Origin: Chloroflexota bacterium
GTDB lineage: Bacteria > Chloroflexota > Dehalococcoidia > Dehalococcoidales > JACPPQ01
Assembly (NCBI GenBank): GCA_016190925.1
Contig: JACPPQ010000158.1
Location: 1-39,606 of the forward strand
Length of the DNA: 39,606 nt
Reading direction: 5' to 3'
Part shown: in pieces, positions 14,417 through 28,593 of the stretch
How the letters are laid out: each line of letters begins with the position of its first letter
Position numbering within the stretch: the stretch's first letter is position 1
The notes under the pieces: generated by a model
Told to the model about the DNA's origin: nothing
The model's database searches: none
What the model saw: only the letters and a program-made list of their open reading frames with translations
Translations under genes and position numbers: made by a program

Positions 14417-16633
14417 TTGGTTTTCTCAAATTGGAAAAAGTGGAAGAACGTGGTATTTGCGGCGGTGCTGGCGGCGGAACTGCTGCCGGTTACTATGACG
14501 CCACTAAGCAGTTCTGCGGACTGGATGCCGGGGAAGATAACCACCGTGGCAGGAAACGGCACTTTGGGTTTTGGTGGAGACAACGGGCCGGCAACCAGCG
14601 CTCAGCTAACTTATCCCAAAGGGGTAGGGGTAGACGGCAGCGGCAACCTGTTTATCGCCGATTACAGCAATCGCATCCGCAAGGTGAATACATCGGGCAT
14701 AATAACCACCGTGGCCGGAAACGGGACTCCCGGTTATGGCGGAGACGGCGGGCAGGCTACCAGCGCTTCACTTAATTCTCCCGCTGGAATTGCGCTGGAT
14801 AGCAACGGCAATCTGTTCATCGCCGATACAAGCAATGCCCGCATCCGCAAGGTAGCCGGGAACACAATAACCACCGTGGCCGGCGGAAACCAGGAGATCG
14901 ACTTTAGTGGAAACGGGGGAGACGGCGGGCTGGCTACCAGCGCCTGGCTAAATTCGCCCCAAGGAGTAGCGGTAGACAGCAACGGCAATCTGTTCATCAC
15001 CAACATCAATCGCATCCGCAAGGTAACCGCATCTACCGGTATAATAGACACCGTGGTCGGAAACGGTGCTTCCGGTTCTGGCGGAGACGGCGGGCTGGCT
15101 GCCAGCGCCCAGCTAAATTATTCCGTTGGAGTAGCGGTAGACAGCGGCGACAACCTGTTTATCGCCGACTCGGGCAACAATCGCATCCGCAAGGTAACCG
15201 CATCTACCGGCATAATAACCACCGTCGCCGGAAACGGTGCTTCCGGTTCTGGCGGAGACGGCGGGCTGGCTACCAGCGCCCAGCTAAATTTTCCCGTTGG
15301 AGTAGCGCTAGACAGCGCCGGCAACCTCTTCATTGCCGATCGCGACAACCAGCGCGTCCGCAGGGTGGATGCAGCTACCGGGATAATAACCACCGTGGCG
15401 GGAACGGGGACAGGTGGTTACAACGAGGACAACATCACGGCTACCGGCGCCCAACTGTTCAATCCCTACGGTGTGGTTGCAGACAGCGGCGGCAACTACC
15501 TGTTCATCGCCGATACCGAAAATAATCGCATCCGCAAGGTGGTCAAAGCCGTTGACATTGTGCCTCCGGCAACAGCAACGGTCACCGTCAATTTGTTCTA
15601 TCGCGCTTCCACTATGCCTGCCGCGTTTTCAGGGACGGCGGCGGATGATGCTACAGGCATGGGGCTGAATGCCAACAGCGCCACCTTCACTTTACGGCGA
15701 GGTTCGGACTCTCAATACTGGACCGGTTCCGCCTGGCAAGCCGGCGCCGCCTGGCTGGCTACCAGCCACGCAGCTACCGCCGGGGGCGCATCGGTCAACT
15801 GGACCAACTCGGCTGCCATGCCCGCCTGGGCCGACGGCAGCTACACCGTGCAGGCAAGAGCTATCGATAAATACTCAAATACTACCACCGGCGCTGCGGT
15901 CAGCTTTACCTTCGACAGCACCGCGCCGGTAATCACCTTTGCCCCCATGCTGGGATTCACCGGGCCTTTGCAAGCCCAGCAAATCGGCTGGACATCTACC
16001 GACGCTAACATAACGCCTAACTCCGCCATACTCGAAGGTTTTAACGGCACATCCTGGCTTCCTATCGCCACCGGCCAGCCTGCCACGGGGAGCTCCAACT
16101 GGACGGTGCCGGCGGTAAACACCAGCGCAGCCAAAGCGCGCGTTACCGTGACTGACCTGGCAGGAAATACAACCACCACAGAGACATGGACCTTTGTCAT
16201 TGACTCCACCATTCCCACGGCAAGTATCTACGATATTCCGGCAACAGTGAGCTATTTGCAGGCTATTGCAGGTTCCAGCTCAGACCCGGCTCCCGGCCAG
16301 ATGGACAAGGTGCAGGTGGTGGTGAACGATACCACCGGGGGAACATACTGGGATGGCGCTGCCTGGGTGGGAACTGAGACATGGTTGGAGGCGTACAGGA
16401 ACACCGCCGGGACAGGCTGGGCTTTCCCGGTGCCAACGCTGGTAAATGACAATAACTACACTGTGAAAGCAAAGACAACGGACAGGTCCCTGAACGTCTC
16501 CACAATCGCAACGGACAGCTTTACTTTTTCAGCGGCTCAGGCGGGAGGTGTTCCGGGTGACGCGAACGGGGATGGACTGGTGAATGCGCTGGATATAACT
16601 AAAACGGAGAGGATTATTGCGGGTTTGGATTAA
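14417..16633 (+). CDS. Secreted NHL-repeat beta-propeller protein with Ig-like regions and a C-terminal dockerin-like motif
   Basis: Six repeats of ITTVAGNGxxGxGGDGGxATSAxLNxPxGVAVDSxGNLFIADxxNxRIRKV; C-terminal GDANGDGLVNALDITKTERIIAGLD; TTG start behind aggaggtgg. Confidence 0.85.
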   Translation: MVFSNWKKWKNVVFAAVLAAELLPVTMTPLSSSADWMPGKITTVAGNGTLGFGGDNGPATSAQLTYPKGVGVDGSGNLFIADYSNRIRKVNTSGIITTVAGNGTPGYGGDGGQATSASLNSPAGIALDSNGNLFIADTSNARIRKVAGNTITTVAGGNQEIDFSGNGGDGGLATSAWLNSPQGVAVDSNGNLFITNINRIRKVTASTGIIDTVVGNGASGSGGDGGLAASAQLNYSVGVAVDSGDNLFIADSGNNRIRKVTASTGIITTVAGNGASGSGGDGGLATSAQLNFPVGVALDSAGNLFIADRDNQRVRRVDAATGIITTVAGTGTGGYNEDNITATGAQLFNPYGVVADSGGNYLFIADTENNRIRKVVKAVDIVPPATATVTVNLFYRASTMPAAFSGTAADDATGMGLNANSATFTLRRGSDSQYWTGSAWQAGAAWLATSHAATAGGASVNWTNSAAMPAWADGSYTVQARAIDKYSNTTTGAAVSFTFDSTAPVITFAPMLGFTGPLQAQQIGWTSTDANITPNSAILEGFNGTSWLPIATGQPATGSSNWTVPAVNTSAAKARVTVTDLAGNTTTTETWTFVIDSTIPTASIYDIPATVSYLQAIAGSSSDPAPGQMDKVQVVVNDTTGGTYWDGAAWVGTETWLEAYRNTAGTGWAFPVPTLVNDNNYTVKAKTTDRSLNVSTIATDSFTFSAAQAGGVPGDANGDGLVNALDITKTERIIAGLD

Positions 16634-17706: not shown

Positions 17707-17943
17707 ATGGGCAGTACAAGTAAACCGAGAAAAGAGCGGGACTATTACTCCAGTCTCCCCTACAACATCATCGTTGAGCAGTGGGACGATGGGGAGGGGC
17801 CTTACTGGGTTGCCCGGGTTGTGGAACTTCCCCATTGCCTGATTCATGGTGAAACACCTGAAGAGGCCATCAGGGAGATTGAGGAAGTCAAGCGGGAATG
17901 GATAAAGTCCAACCTGGAGAGAGGACTAGAGATACCGGAATGA
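17707..17943 (+). CDS. HicB-like antitoxin, no adjacent hicA of its own
   Basis: LPYNIIVEQWDDGEGPYWVARVVELPHCLIHGETPEEAIREIEEVKREWI. Confidence 0.8.
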   Translation: MGSTSKPRKERDYYSSLPYNIIVEQWDDGEGPYWVARVVELPHCLIHGETPEEAIREIEEVKREWIKSNLERGLEIPE

Positions 17944-18011
17944 CATAAACGCAATACTTTTCAGGCAACGCTCATCGAGGGAGAGGAAATCTGTTATTGG
18001 GGACAATGTGA

Positions 18012-23024: not shown

Positions 23025-23648
23025 ATGGCAGCAGCAATAGTCGGTATCATCATTTTCCTGATTGCCGCACCAAGAATAGTCAAGAAGTGGTATCACCGCC
23101 CCGCCCCGGCACACATCGGGCCGTTCCTTAGCAGTCCTTTAAGATTCTTGATGCAACCGCCCGATAAGATAATCGAGCGTAGCGGCATCAAGCCGGGGAT
23201 GACGGTGCTCGACCTCGGCTGCGGGAGCGGGGCCTTCACCATTCCTGTCGCCAGGGCAGTCGGAGAGCAGGGCAAAGTGATTGCCGTGGACATACAAAGG
23301 GCAATGCTGCGGCAGTTGAAGCGCAAGCTGGCAAAAGCCAAGAACCACGATATAAAGAACATCGAAGTAAGGCATGACAGCGCGTATAACCTGCCGATGG
23401 CGGACGGGACGGTGGACCTGGCGCTGATGGTGACCAGCCTGCCGGAGATGGCGGAAAGGGAAAGGGCGCTGCGGGAGGTAAGGCGGGTATTGAAACCCGG
23501 AGGAATCCTGGCGGTGAGCGAGATGATTATCGACCCGGACTTTCCCTGGCGCTCTACCACCATCAAGCTCTGCGAGGGTGAGGGATTTGTGGTGGAGGAG
23601 AGCCTCGGAAAGTGGTGGAGCTACACGGTGAGGTTTCGGCGAAAATAG
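23025..23648 (+). CDS. Class I SAM-dependent methyltransferase
   Basis: KPGMTVLDLGCGSGAFTIPVARAVGEQGKVIAVDIQ; RVLKPGGILAVSE. Confidence 0.9.
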   Translation: MAAAIVGIIIFLIAAPRIVKKWYHRPAPAHIGPFLSSPLRFLMQPPDKIIERSGIKPGMTVLDLGCGSGAFTIPVARAVGEQGKVIAVDIQRAMLRQLKRKLAKAKNHDIKNIEVRHDSAYNLPMADGTVDLALMVTSLPEMAERERALREVRRVLKPGGILAVSEMIIDPDFPWRSTTIKLCEGEGFVVEESLGKWWSYTVRFRRK

Positions 23649-23709
23649 CTATCAGCTTCGAGTTTTCCCTATTATATATAAAACGAGAGGGAGTTACCAC
23701 TGGCCAGAC
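23640..23709 (+). repeat. Direct repeat DR1 flanking the hicA-hicB cassette
   Basis: cgaaaatagctatcagcttcgagttttccctattatatataaaacgagagggagtta; partner at 24530-24599, offset 890 bp. Confidence 0.85.
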
Positions 23710-23858
23710 AGGGGGATGGCTGGCCACATGGTAATTAATTTCCATCCGTTCTGTGTATGGCTACAGAGAAGATTCTACCACATAACAAGCGAGAGGTACC
23801 ATCTACTTTGGGGTGACTGAAATGTATTCATTGACTGGGTGCTACCATATATGCTAGC

Positions 23859-24101
23859 ATTAAATCGAAGAAATGGGTAAGGCTAGTAAGCGGGAACAAA
23901 AGAATCCGGCAGAATGTCAAGAACGTTAGCCTGGAAGATTTTGAATGGCTTATCTGCCAGTACGGTACCATGGAGTTTGGCGGCAACCACGCCCTAGCAA
24001 GCATCGGGAATGTACGCTATCCTTATAGGAGGCAAAATCCGGTCAATTTCCATTACGTAGCCGAGTTATTAAAGATTATCGACAGTCAACAGACGGAGTA
24101 G
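23859..24101 (+). CDS. HicA-like toxin lacking a conventional start codon (possible fragment)
   Basis: Manual translation: IKSKKWVRLVSGNKRIRQNVKNVSLEDFEWLICQYGTMEFGGNHALASIGNVRYPYRRQNPVNFHYVAELLKIIDSQQTE*; GGNH motif; 14 nt upstream of hicB. Not in the ORF track. Confidence 0.55.
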   Translation: MKSKKWVRLVSGNKRIRQNVKNVSLEDFEWLICQYGTMEFGGNHALASIGNVRYPYRRQNPVNFHYVAELLKIIDSQQTE

Positions 24102-24115
24102 GTCAGGAGGGGAAG

Positions 24116-24538
24116 ATGGAAAAGAGCATCGAGTATTATATGGATTTGCCCTATACCATCGTGGTGAAAAAAGAGAAGGACAATAAGGGTGAGGATTGCT
24201 ATATATCTCGTTTGCTGGAGATACCGCATGTTCTGGGTGACGGGAAAACACCGCAGGAAGCCATGGAGTGCCTGAATATGCATATGAGGATGGCAATCAA
24301 AGCATATTTAAGGGACGGGATACCGATAGCCGAACCGCAGACGGAGTACAGCGGTAATATCAACATCCGGGTGGACCCGGAACTGCACGCTAATTTAGCC
24401 CGGGAAGCCGCAGTCTATGATATCAGCCTGAACAAATACACGGCGTTGATACTGGAAAGACGAAAGATAGGTATGCAACCGACATCGGCAAACCGCCTGG
24501 TGCGGGGGAAGAGGTCGAGTGCTGGTATGCGAAAATAG
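24116..24538 (+). CDS. hicB: HicB-family antitoxin with C-terminal ribbon-helix-helix-like region
   Basis: LPYTIVVKKEKDNKGEDCYISRLLEIPHVLGDGKTPQEAMECLNMHMRMAI, then INIRVDPELHANLAREAAVYDISLNKYTALIL; SD aggaggggaag. Confidence 0.85.
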   Translation: MEKSIEYYMDLPYTIVVKKEKDNKGEDCYISRLLEIPHVLGDGKTPQEAMECLNMHMRMAIKAYLRDGIPIAEPQTEYSGNINIRVDPELHANLAREAAVYDISLNKYTALILERRKIGMQPTSANRLVRGKRSSAGMRK

Positions 24539-24599
24539 CGGTCAGCTTAGGGTTTTTCCTATTAAATACAAAACGAGAGGGAGTTATTGGAACGGACAG
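24530..24599 (+). repeat. Direct repeat DR2 flanking the hicA-hicB cassette
   Basis: cgaaaatagcggtcagcttagggtttttcctattaaatacaaaacgagagggagtta. Confidence 0.85.
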
Positions 24600-24652
24600 G
24601 GTGAATGATTGGCTTTCCATGAGTACGTTAAAAAATGCTCGCCTGTTCTATG

Positions 24653-25453
24653 TTAAGCCGTAATACTCTGGGAATAGTAGTTACAATTGTCTTTGGCTCC
24701 ACAGAAAAAGCAACCTGGATTTTCTTCCAAGCAGATTCCGCTTTTAAGTCCAAATTCTTTGGACTCCTCTTGTCCGTAGACTGCAAATACAATATCAATG
24801 TATCGAATGGGATATCCTGTTGCCTGGGCAAACTTCCTGCCGTGAATGACAGTCTTTAAGAACTGCTGGTCACTTTCTATGAGTCCCAATCGTTTGAAGA
24901 TGCGACAAACTACACGGTCGGGTTTGACAACAGGCATCCCAATATCGGTGAGAACATGATAAGTCGTTATTCTACCAAGACCGGAGAACTTCAATTCTAA
25001 TTCTTCCTTAAAGAGCATAAGATTCTCGAAAGACGTTTTTGGAGCAAACGAGTCAATGTAGGATTGAAACGAGCCGTAAGTACCAACAATGCTGTTGAAC
25101 ATAAGCGCGTTATTAACACAGGATTCAACCTTACGCCGATTCTTTATCATCTGTGGGTCTGCTAGAATCTCGTTAACCTTGTCACCATCGTAGTTCGCGA
25201 CTGTTTGGTAGTCAGGGAAGTAGGCGCGTATCAAGTCCAGTTTTTCATTGACGGTAGCAGCCCTGAATCCTGAATAGAAAATGACGCTAACTAATATCCA
25301 ATAGTAATCTGCGTCTGAGAAAGTCTTAGTCCCAAGATGCTTGAAGCTGTCAAGTTTGCCTTTTAGCTGGTCTACTGGCATGTTCAAAGAACCGACAATA
25401 ATAAGCGTGGACTCAATCTTGTCGAAAATATCCTTATAGTCTTTCACGGGCAT
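24653..25453 (-). CDS. HhH-GPD DNA glycosylase-like protein with an EndoIII-type Fe-S cysteine motif
   Basis: DADYYWILVSVIFYSGFRAATV and VVKPDRVVCRIFKRLGLI resemble DNA glycosylases; C-terminal C-LEENPG-C-FF-C-GAKDN-C = C-x6-C-x2-C-x5-C. Confidence 0.6.
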   Translation of the reverse strand: MPVKDYKDIFDKIESTLIIVGSLNMPVDQLKGKLDSFKHLGTKTFSDADYYWILVSVIFYSGFRAATVNEKLDLIRAYFPDYQTVANYDGDKVNEILADPQMIKNRRKVESCVNNALMFNSIVGTYGSFQSYIDSFAPKTSFENLMLFKEELELKFSGLGRITTYHVLTDIGMPVVKPDRVVCRIFKRLGLIESDQQFLKTVIHGRKFAQATGYPIRYIDIVFAVYGQEESKEFGLKSGICLEENPGCFFCGAKDNCNYYSQSITA

Positions 25454-25456
25454 CTA

Positions 25457-25534
25457 TCTGACCCCTGCCAGTTTCGCGTTCTTAATCGTGACTGTGGGAC
25501 TGGTTTACCGGTGCCTGGTCCGCCCTTCCAGCCA
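25457..25534 (-). repeat. Flanking repeat R1 (contains the C-terminal codons of the DUF2442 ORF)
   Basis: ctgacccctgccagtttcgc...gggactggtttaccggtgcctggtccgcccttcca; second copy at 26149-26221. Confidence 0.85.
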
Positions 25535-25810
25535 GCGCTTGAAGGATGCATGGCTCTCACCGGAGTGATGCCCTGCCAGCAAGTTTTTCACACTGATGTC
25601 CTCGTCAAGGTCGTTCCAATGAATACCCTCACCCTTGCCTATAAATCGCCAGTTGCCGCGCTCCTTGGGTGTACCATGCAATAGCCTCGGGTACCAGGCC
25701 AAAGGAACCGAGATAGTCCGGCCATCGCTCAGCTCAACCGTGAGAGTTTCTTCCGTTATCTCTACACCTACGGCATTCGGTATTTCTATCTCAACTCTGG
25801 AAATAGTCAT
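25505..25810 (-). CDS. DUF2442-like protein
   Basis: VGVEITEETLTVELSDGRTISVPLAWYPRLLHGTPKERGNWRFIGKGEGIHWNDLDEDISVKNLLAG. Confidence 0.85.
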   Translation of the reverse strand: MTISRVEIEIPNAVGVEITEETLTVELSDGRTISVPLAWYPRLLHGTPKERGNWRFIGKGEGIHWNDLDEDISVKNLLAGHHSGESHASFKRWLEGRTRHR

Positions 25811-26027
25811 GCCAGGCCTCCAACAACGAGGATTGCTGTTCCTCGACAACTCGCTGAATACGTCTTAACTCTGACCTGCTGAACCCGCCGCTTCTCTCTA
25901 GCCTAACAGGGTCCAACCAAAATTTCGCCACGTTCTCATCTCGCTCAACGTGGACGTGTGCCGGCTCGTCGCCATCACCTGCATAGAAGAAAAGTCGATA
26001 TGCCCCTATACATCGGATGGTCGGCAT
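25791..26027 (-). CDS. DUF4160-like protein
   Basis: MPTIRCIGAYRLFFYAGDGDEPAHVHVERDENVAKFWLDPVRLERSGGFSRSELRRIQRVVEEQQSSLLEAWHDYF; overlaps DUF2442. Confidence 0.88.
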   Translation of the reverse strand: MPTIRCIGAYRLFFYAGDGDEPAHVHVERDENVAKFWLDPVRLERSGGFSRSELRRIQRVVEEQQSSLLEAWHDYFQS

Positions 26028-26078
26028 CTATTACTTTGTTTTATCCTTCCCAACTTAGCAAAAAATACCCTTAGCTAT

Positions 26079-26114
26079 CACTGCAAAAACCTCGGAATGT
26101 TTGCCCTTTCATGC
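26079..26114 (-). repeat. Leader repeat P upstream of DUF4160-DUF2442
   Basis: cactgcaaaaacctcggaatgtttgccctttcatgc; second copy at 26919-26954 (32/36 identical). Confidence 0.85.
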
Positions 26115-26148
26115 AAGCTATTCACCGTGTCAAGATGCAGCAAGCTTA

Positions 26149-26221
26149 CCTGACTCCTGCCAGTTTCGCATTCTCGTGATGGGGGACTGGTTTACCGGTG
26201 CCTGGTTCGTCCTTCCAAGCA
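26149..26221 (-). repeat. Flanking repeat R1' downstream of the MNT gene
   Basis: ctgactcctgccagtttcgcattctcgtgatgggggactggtttaccggtgcctggttcgtccttcca; its minus strand still encodes WCLEGRTRHR*, matching the DUF2442 C-terminus WLEGRTRHR*. Confidence 0.85.
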
Positions 26222-26233
26222 CCACATGCGAAA

Positions 26234-26560
26234 CTATACGGCTATCGCCTCGTGTTCCAGCACTTCCTTCAAAAACGGAGGCAACGCGCCGCTTTCAATT
26301 TCTTCCGGTGTGAAGCCATATGCCTGAATAGGTTCTTTGAGCCTGCCCGCTGCCAGACCCAGAAGCTCCATCCGCTCCAGCAGGCCCAGCTGACTGAAAT
26401 CTTCAGATATCACAACCAGGTCCAGGTCGCTACCTTCATGCTGGTTGCCCTGTGCGTAAGAGCCAAAGAGAAACACGGCGCGCGCCCGTATGCCCCTGCT
26501 TCCTAACTCTTTGCGGTAGCGGTCAATTATTCTTTCAGTTTTGGATGCGATTTTAGCCAC
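26234..26560 (-). CDS. Nucleotidyltransferase (MNT/MntA-like)
   Basis: RARAVFLFGSYAQGNQHEGSDLDLVVIS (GSxxxG...SDxDL). Confidence 0.92.
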   Translation of the reverse strand: MAKIASKTERIIDRYRKELGSRGIRARAVFLFGSYAQGNQHEGSDLDLVVISEDFSQLGLLERMELLGLAAGRLKEPIQAYGFTPEEIESGALPPFLKEVLEHEAIAV

Positions 26561-26592
26561 TTTAATACTCTCTCTGTTTGTGCGAGGTAGGT

Positions 26593-26921
26593 TCAGGCTA
26601 CTTTCTCAGTGTATTCCAATATTACTCTTTCAATGTCCGCGGGATAGCGTGTCGGGATGCTGGCATTATTCAACTTGCTTATAAACTCGTACAGGTCCGG
26701 CTCCAAATTTACGCACTGCTGGCTAAAAAGATAAGGTCATGACTTCTGGGCGCTGGCTTGTCGTTGACTTCAGTTACCAGCGCCTTCAGTAATTTTTCGA
26801 TTACCAGGTGCGAGAAAAACACAACATAAATATATCTGCCAGTAACGAGCATATGCCGGGCAGTCTCAAAATCATACTCAGCTGACCTTAGCCAGTTAGC
26901 CGGGAAACCCGGACTCACCAC
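26593..26921 (-). pseudogene. HEPN-domain protein with a frameshift
   Basis: ORF LRSAEYDFETARHMLVTGRYIYVVFFSHLVIEKLLKALV...SHDLIFLASSA* (26709-26921) resumes in another frame as LFSQQCVNLEPDLYEFISKLNNASIPTRYPADIERVILEYTEKVA* to 26593. Confidence 0.75.
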
Positions 26922-26954
26922 TGCAAAAACACTGGAATGTTTGCCTTTTCATGC
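26919..26954 (-). repeat. Leader repeat P' upstream of HEPN-MNT
   Basis: cactgcaaaaacactggaatgtttgccttttcatgc. Confidence 0.85.
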
Positions 26955-27085
26955 GTACTATATAAGCCGATACCGTGATTATAACACAGTTTCAAGAATA
27001 GCATTGCCACGTAAAATACCCCAGGGCAGGGGCAAGGGAAAGCAAAAGAGAGGCCATCAGAGGACAAAAGGGTGAATCTCTGTCC

Positions 27086-27118
27086 CCGCTCATGGTTCGA
27101 CAGGCTCACCACGAGCGG
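27086..27118. repeat. 33-bp hairpin repeat, copy 1
   Basis: ccgctcatggttcgacaggctcaccacgagcgg, identical to 28713-28745; 10/11 bp stem. Confidence 0.8.
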
Positions 27119-27132
27119 ACAACGACTGAGTG

Positions 27133-28593
27133 CTAGAACTTGAAGATATCGGTAGCCAATTGCGCCAGCCTGATTCCCAGGCCGGGAGCAATGCCGAACA
27201 CCAGCACGCCGATGCAGGAAATTCCGAGGGCCACCTTGAGCGCAGGTGAGGAGGGTACAGTCTCCAGCGAGGCGGGTTCGCCGACCCACATGGTCTTGAC
27301 CACCCGCATATAGTAGTAAGCGGAGGCTACGCTGTTTACCACGGCGATGATGACCAGCCAAAGAAGGCCGTGGTTGACCGCAGAGCTGAAGATATAGAAC
27401 TTGGCCATGAAGCCCGCCGCCGGCGGCATCCCGATGAGAGAAATGAGTCCGAGGCTCAGAGCCAGGCTCAGTCCCGGAGAGCGCTTTATCATCCCTGAGA
27501 AATCGGCGATGTCGTCGCTGTTGATTTTGTTGGAAATAGCGATGATGGCGATGAATACCGCCAGGTTAGCCAGAGAATAGGCCGCCAGGAAGAAGAGAAT
27601 GCCGCTCCGGCCCAGGATATCCGCCGGGGGAGCTACTCCGACCGTAGCCAGTCCCACCATGAGGTAGCCGGCCTGGGCGATGCTTGAGTACCCCAGCATG
27701 CGCTTGATATTGGTCTGAGGAATTGCGAGTATGTTCCCAAGTGTCATGCTGATGGCGGCAAGGACAGCGAAAATTATACCCCACTCCATGCCCAGCCACT
27801 GCGGCATTCCGAAAGCGGAATAGAAGACCCTTAATATCACGGCAAATCCGGCCGCCTTGCTTCCCACCGAGAGGAACGCGGTGATGGTGGTCGGCGCGCC
27901 TTCATAGACGTCAGGCACCCACATCTGGAAGGGGACGGCGGCAATCTTGAAGCCGAAACCGGCTATTATCAATATCATGCCGAAGATAAGCCCCGGCCCG
28001 GCGGACGCCATCGGCAGAGAGGCCGACTGGATAGCCGAAGCAATCTGGGACAGGTGAGTCTTGCCGGTAAAACCGAAGACGAAGGCCATGCCAAAAAGCA
28101 GAACGGAGGAGGCCACCGCGCCCAGGAGCAAATACTTGAGCGAAGACTCGCTCGACTTCGGGTCTTTCAGGAAGCCGACCAGGACATAGAGCGGTATGCT
28201 GGTCAGTTCAAGCGCGATATAGACCGAAATCAAGTCGGTGGCGGCGGCCATCAGCATCATGCCCAGAGTAGAGATAAGAAGAAGAGCGTAGTATTCGCCC
28301 CGGAAGCGGGAGAACTTTGAAACGTAATCCGCGGAAGCAAGAATAACCAGGCCGGTGATACTCAGGAACAGCAGCTTGAAGAAAAGGGCAAAGTTATCTA
28401 TGGCGACCAGCCCGCCGAAAATGGTCCCGGGCTGGATTCCCCACAGCGCAACGGTAAAGAAAGCGGCAACCACCAATCCGATGATGCTGACCACTGCCAG
28501 CACAACCTTCTTCTCAATGAAGAGGTCGAGCAAGATTACTATTATGGCAAAAGCCGCCAGACTCAGTTCCGGTATTAAAAGCCCGAAATTCAA
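27133..28593 (-). CDS. nuoN: NADH-quinone oxidoreductase subunit N
   Basis: 486 aa; MLMAAATDLISVYIALELTSIPLYVLVGF, NIKRMLGYSSIAQAGYLMVG, PPAAGFMAKFYIF. Confidence 0.95.
   Translation of the reverse strand: MNFGLLIPELSLAAFAIIVILLDLFIEKKVVLAVVSIIGLVVAAFFTVALWGIQPGTIFGGLVAIDNFALFFKLLFLSITGLVILASADYVSKFSRFRGEYYALLLISTLGMMLMAAATDLISVYIALELTSIPLYVLVGFLKDPKSSESSLKYLLLGAVASSVLLFGMAFVFGFTGKTHLSQIASAIQSASLPMASAGPGLIFGMILIIAGFGFKIAAVPFQMWVPDVYEGAPTTITAFLSVGSKAAGFAVILRVFYSAFGMPQWLGMEWGIIFAVLAAISMTLGNILAIPQTNIKRMLGYSSIAQAGYLMVGLATVGVAPPADILGRSGILFFLAAYSLANLAVFIAIIAISNKINSDDIADFSGMIKRSPGLSLALSLGLISLIGMPPAAGFMAKFYIFSSAVNHGLLWLVIIAVVNSVASAYYYMRVVKTMWVGEPASLETVPSSPALKVALGISCIGVLVFGIAPGLGIRLAQLATDIFKF

Follow-up and report, generated by a model that had tools for sequence, protein, structure and literature searches.

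The window, by which we mean the whole stretch of 39,606 nucleotides analysed here, carries on its plus strand a class I SAM-type methyltransferase gene (23025..23648; PF13649, E 2.6e-23, and PF01209, E 2.4e-23) followed by a hicAB toxin-antitoxin (TA) pair, with the 3' end of this resident gene duplicated behind the pair. The intervening DNA, all read on the plus strand, consists of a 176 bp leader from the first repeat copy to the hicA start (23697..23872), which holds a strong inverted repeat (23697-23735, fold z-score -2.0), a hicA-like toxin gene (23873..24101) and a hicB antitoxin gene (24116..24538; PF05534, E 3.7e-13, residues 72-109) whose last codons and stop fall inside the second repeat copy. 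A reading of this DNA made from sequence only had placed a HicA-like ORF and a HicB gene between the repeats; HicB was confirmed by its PF05534 match, whereas the HicA-like ORF turned out not to be one open frame. An ATG at 23873 opens MGKASKREQK.., the frame is interrupted near codon 10, and the remainder (IRQNVKNVSLEDFEWL..) continues in a different frame that closes at 24101. Set beside the uninterrupted HicA of two other loci (L087 and L084), this split over two frames means that the toxin gene is interrupted or that the assembly has a small error there. With respect to the type II HicAB class, a HicB-family antitoxin is present and an intact HicA next to hicB is absent, assembly error aside.

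The two gene ends form a direct, gapless repeat of 58 nt (repeat A; 23639..23696 and 24529..24586, plus strand) with 51/58 identical positions (88%) at a spacing of 890 (BLASTN E 1.6e-15, search within 4.5 kb). The repeat claimed by the sequence-only reading, 60-70 bp at an offset of 890, is thus real and correctly spaced, its length being slightly generous, as likeness fades past 58 bp. That each copy opens with the last codons and stop of the preceding gene was borne out: both start with GCGAAAATAG, which reads ..RK-stop for the methyltransferase and ..RK-stop for hicB, followed in copy 1 by 48 bp. A 17-mer within the repeat, AAAACGAGAGGGAGTTA, occurs exactly twice in the window, against 0.10 occurrences expected with up to three mismatches. 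Because the 58 bp are mostly non-coding and have this conserved 17-mer at their end, we considered whether repeat A could be a widespread intergenic or regulatory sequence that stands behind both genes by chance. We regard this as barely credible: a search of the whole genome for further occurrences, as that first reading had proposed, using copy 2 plus flank as the query, returned two strong matches and no further copy, and a terminator scan did no better than shuffles. The same was true of a promoter scan, and an Rfam search gave nothing above a gathering score.

An insertion block between the methyltransferase gene and nuoN

The methyltransferase stop (23648) is separated by 3.5 kb from the 3' end of a nuoN-like gene (27133..28593, minus strand). 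In three genomes of the same taxonomic order, one from each of three families (G022, G030 and G038), the methyltransferase gene stands directly against nuoN, which represents an empty site; by this comparison, the stretch 23648-27133 is an insertion block. The expectation that relatives would have an empty site was therefore answered in part, since these relatives belong to families other than the window's and an allele with a single copy of repeat A was not seen among them. Comparison of their methyltransferase-nuoN spacers with repeat A was uninformative.

Beyond hicAB the block continues on the minus strand with a DNA glycosylase-like gene (24653..25453; PF03352, E 1.4e-13), a DUF4160 and DUF2442 gene pair (25505..26027; PF13711, E 4.5e-19, and PF10387, E 2.5e-22) and a pair of a short HEPN gene and an MNT nucleotidyltransferase gene (26234..26921; PF05168, E 6.2e-12, and PF01909, E 5.8e-11). 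The latter two pairs are bounded by two further minus-strand repeats, B (25455..25541 and 26147..26228) and C (26079..26121 and 26919..26961). The first copy of repeat B fuses the DUF2442 gene's 3' end with the 3' tail of a different hicB (..PTVTIKNAKLAGV..), and the second copy lies just behind the MNT gene stop. Since that hicB end occurs intact both on contig C16 of this genome and in G011, the block looks like the product of successive insertions from which gene ends remained; related events probably produced the remainder of the 3.5 kb up to nuoN. Between 23648 and 27133 the genes that could be recognised comprise TA-like pairs and the glycosylase, with no integrase or recombinase among them by which to assign the block to integrase-driven elements (ICE, IME, ssrA island).

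Several smaller features accompany the block. The HEPN gene (26709-26921) encodes 70 aa and aligns to roughly half of PF05168, so this HEPN-MNT pair has perhaps decayed. Element C, roughly GTACGCATGRAANGGCAAACATYCC, has seven strong copies in the genome, with a related one in G011, and frequently follows TA or defence genes; beyond the two window copies, whose folding was no better than that of shuffles, positions include L025 1471-1488 and 2437-2454, L101 3408-3425, L100 about 3799, L102 4306-4323 and L015 121-170.

Duplicated gene ends around toxin-antitoxin pairs of the order

We scanned 128 hicA or hicB loci (one DUF2442 locus included), taken from as many as 156 genomes in the order, for direct repeats spanning the pair, with 100 windows as controls. 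Such a repeat was present at 35/128 loci and in 3/100 control windows (Fisher P 2e-7), the controls being unmatched for accessory regions. When the repeats were sorted by eye, 16 of the 35 proved to be duplicated gene ends; as L136 and L178 are one locus, this corresponds to 16/127, with P 8e-5 if none of the controls is counted and 0.014 if all three are. The cases comprise 3' ends (C16, which is L040, and L084, L135, L148, L150, L155, L161 and L182), the 3' end of a tRNA-Ala gene (L177) and 5' ends (L087, L173 and L178, and leuD in L111, L112, L119 and L151), with nrpR (L155), ETF alpha (L182), cutA (L148) and a terminase gene (L161) among the named targets. The remainder of the 35 includes duplicated hicB genes (L143, L145 and L197) and about a dozen repeats that look like dispersed intergenic ones; the repeat of L034 is a terminator-like element and marks no cassette boundary.

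The layout of these cases is compact. The two copies are mostly 0.6-1.05 kb apart, with 1.26 kb at L177, and in eight 3'-end cases, counting that of the window, the start of the stranded copy falls -10 to +31 nt from the TA stop codon. Multi-copy arrays (L084 and L178) would suit a tandem duplication of a gene end, or a neighbouring paralogue, whose middle was later replaced by a TA pair; this is nonetheless very unlikely, as the insertions lie at single-copy genes (cutA, nrpR and tRNA genes, for example) and the stranded copy repeatedly sits right against the TA stop. An improbable reading, though one with more in its favour, is that the cassettes are relics of larger phage- or island-like integrative elements that used gene ends as attachment sites and of which only the TA pair is left, now fixed. 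Two tRNA 3' ends among the targets, a serine recombinase zinc-ribbon gene adjoining the mazEF pair of L270 and the integrase-less ssrA islands of Dehalococcoides (PMC3146451) are in keeping with such an origin, but the spacing leaves room for two small genes only, and among the 16 cases there are no larger intermediates or other cargo save the 1.26 kb of L177.

The footprint extends to a second TA family. At PemK/MazF toxin loci a spanning repeat was found in 12/49, a count in which a few contig-end loci were scanned at approximate positions and from which L253 is to be dropped. At L278 a mazEF pair lies behind a thioesterase gene, with a stranded 3' end 7 bp past the mazF stop, and at L290 a mazEF pair has the same layout with a tRNA-Gln 3' end.

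The earlier proposal of a unit that enters at gene 3' ends while leaving the stop region intact fits the window, given the unique repeat A and the three empty-site relatives, and is strongly supported by parallels in the same genome and across the order; it is too narrow in that 5' ends and tRNA 3' ends are also used, and what it regarded as the restored end may have come in with the unit, the stranded end then being native, as the C16 locus described below indicates. A HicB scan of genome contigs found no relative, a scan with the L150 CoA transferase found only proteins 35-42% identical and too distant for end comparison, viral contigs held no HicB relative and a single C-motif match, around which no TA pair was recognised, and plasmid HicB relatives were distant. 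Neither a circular form nor a close pair of empty and filled strains was seen.

Two loci are of interest in themselves. L084 (1105-2835; G140:C174) is a TA array of hicAB, RHH-MazF and then an AbrB-like antitoxin, the TA pairs being separated by three degenerate copies of a single gene 3' end. The leuD 5' end has received hicA-containing insertions in four genera (L111, L112, L119 and L151), each with a stranded leuD start, and at L151 hicA begins a few bp behind it.

Origin of the two gene-end copies

The main and serious rival to any model of a carried gene end is a classical long target duplication, which we hold possible but less probable than the crossover set out below. Here the TA pair would insert at staggered breaks or by replication repair and 30-130 bp of target would be duplicated in place, giving identical copies of which the outer one decays. 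In the window the insert is missing in relatives (of other families) and is flanked by long direct target repeats, the arrangement that defines this class. Such duplications, on the order of 100 bp, are known for restriction-modification genes (PMC3874152; PMC3031569), the copies at L087 are 98% identical, and the use of 5', 3' and tRNA ends alike would need only selection for an unbroken gene.

Two observations stand against duplication in place. Across 14 coding segments from 13 loci, 113 mismatches fell 29/13/71 at codon positions 1/2/3, along with 2 gaps, a count biased low because local alignments tend to end at gaps. The third-position share of 63% departs from one third (P 1e-10) and also from the roughly estimated 48% expected for in-place duplication with one decaying copy (P 0.001); it falls between the expectations of pure in-place duplication and pure donor divergence.

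The second observation comes from the other hicAB locus of the genome, on contig C16, where the pair sits within a 120 bp, 81% identical duplication of the 3' end of a putative glutaminyl-cyclotransferase-like gene, and the second copy of that end begins at the hicB stop codon. When both ends were compared with 19 orthologues, the stranded end (..GKFWPEVFEIALVPE) was closer than the intact gene's end (..GKYYPKVFEIEVVPE) to 18/19 at the amino acid level, with one tie, and to 15/19 at the nucleotide level, with two ties and two against, in a test of 93-102 nt at a single locus, its orthologues not being independent of one another; several other pairs have too few differences. Duplication in place would make both copies from the same resident allele, yet at C16 it is the intact gene's end that is the outlier, and the stranded copy looks, by these alignments, as a displaced native end would. 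This favours a single crossover with a gene-end copy carried by the TA pair. The related hicAB pairs of C16, C41 and G011 share detectable DNA similarity that begins with the hicA start codon and ends with the hicB stop codon, a limit that faster drift of non-coding DNA could also explain. Near the C16 cassette there is also a gene for a CAP12/Pycsar-type TIR effector (L025 1511-2380; PF10137, E 6.5e-35), indicating that the C16 site also gathers defence genes.

The recurrence of the layout around such pairs in many related genomes suggests that TA pairs are inserted at gene ends and leave the gene unbroken. We consider it an even bet that hicAB is a small non-autonomous insertion unit whose carried gene-end copy crosses over once with the matching chromosomal end. 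The incoming DNA molecule, probably a circle, would join a TA pair to a copy of a gene end, and one recombination between that end and its chromosomal match would leave the resident gene whole but now ending in the incoming copy, with the native end displaced and stranded just behind the TA stop codon. In the window this event would have occurred at the 3' end of the methyltransferase gene, and repeated events at one site would yield arrays of TA pairs parted by gene-end fragments. We infer the circular intermediate and the single crossover, as well as the displacement route at the methyltransferase gene, where repeat A is almost all non-coding. The agent could be the general homologous recombination machinery, or else a site-specific recombinase supplied in trans; the minimal cassettes, like the window block, contain no recombinase, and only L270 has part of one, of the serine type, nearby. 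RecA would make poor use of gene-end copies this short and diverged (28-60 bp, 75-90% identity), which counts against the crossover model. The broader reading, that TA pairs of the order are minimal mobile units whose attachment site is a carried host gene end, swapped for the native end at many unrelated genes and served by no recombinase of their own, we offer only tentatively.

Relation to known insertion units

These findings bear on how chromosomal TA pairs arrive and persist where obvious mobile elements are lacking. We found no description of recurrent gene-end duplications around TA pairs in the open-access literature, subscription journals being mostly outside the search. The footprint of a gene end, a TA pair and a second gene end abutting the TA stop offers a tool by which insertions can be located, dated and compared, and it predicts an intermediate of a TA pair plus a gene end. 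Should it regularly be the native end that is stranded, each cassette entry would give a core gene a foreign end.

The closest precedents each share part of this arrangement. The insertion of restriction-modification genes (Nobusato et al. 2000; Furuta et al. 2010; via PMC3874152 and PMC3031569) likewise involves an addictive unit that has no transposase and is flanked by long target duplications of variable extent, present as direct repeats, whereas here the units are TA pairs, a gene or tRNA end is duplicated, the stranded copy abuts the TA stop and the coding copies look diverged under constraint. The ssrA islands of Dehalococcoides (PMC3146451) also repeat a gene 3' end at their far boundary, accrete in tandem and include members without integration genes that are possibly cis-mobilizable, but they use one target (ssrA), a 20 bp repeat and the serine recombinase DsiB and span several kb, in contrast to the many targets, repeats of about 30-130 bp, units of roughly 1 kb and lack of a recombinase seen here. 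A ParDE-like TA pair of Microcystis is similarly fenced behind a gene by long direct repeats (PMC7935541); these are two identical copies of 152 bp that start 14 bp past the stop codon, within intergenic DNA, in a single case. Integron TA gene cassettes are compact TA units too, sometimes arrayed and with a repeat behind each. An integron reading was dropped since the repeat, a copy of the local gene end, is a different one at each locus; no integron integrase was seen.

Elsewhere in the window, a weak match to hicB at 17761-17952 contains an in-frame TGA and may represent a further decayed TA gene, and 14497-15516 holds tandem repeats of 165-177 bp that look like in-phase coding DNA, perhaps of the beta-propeller type.
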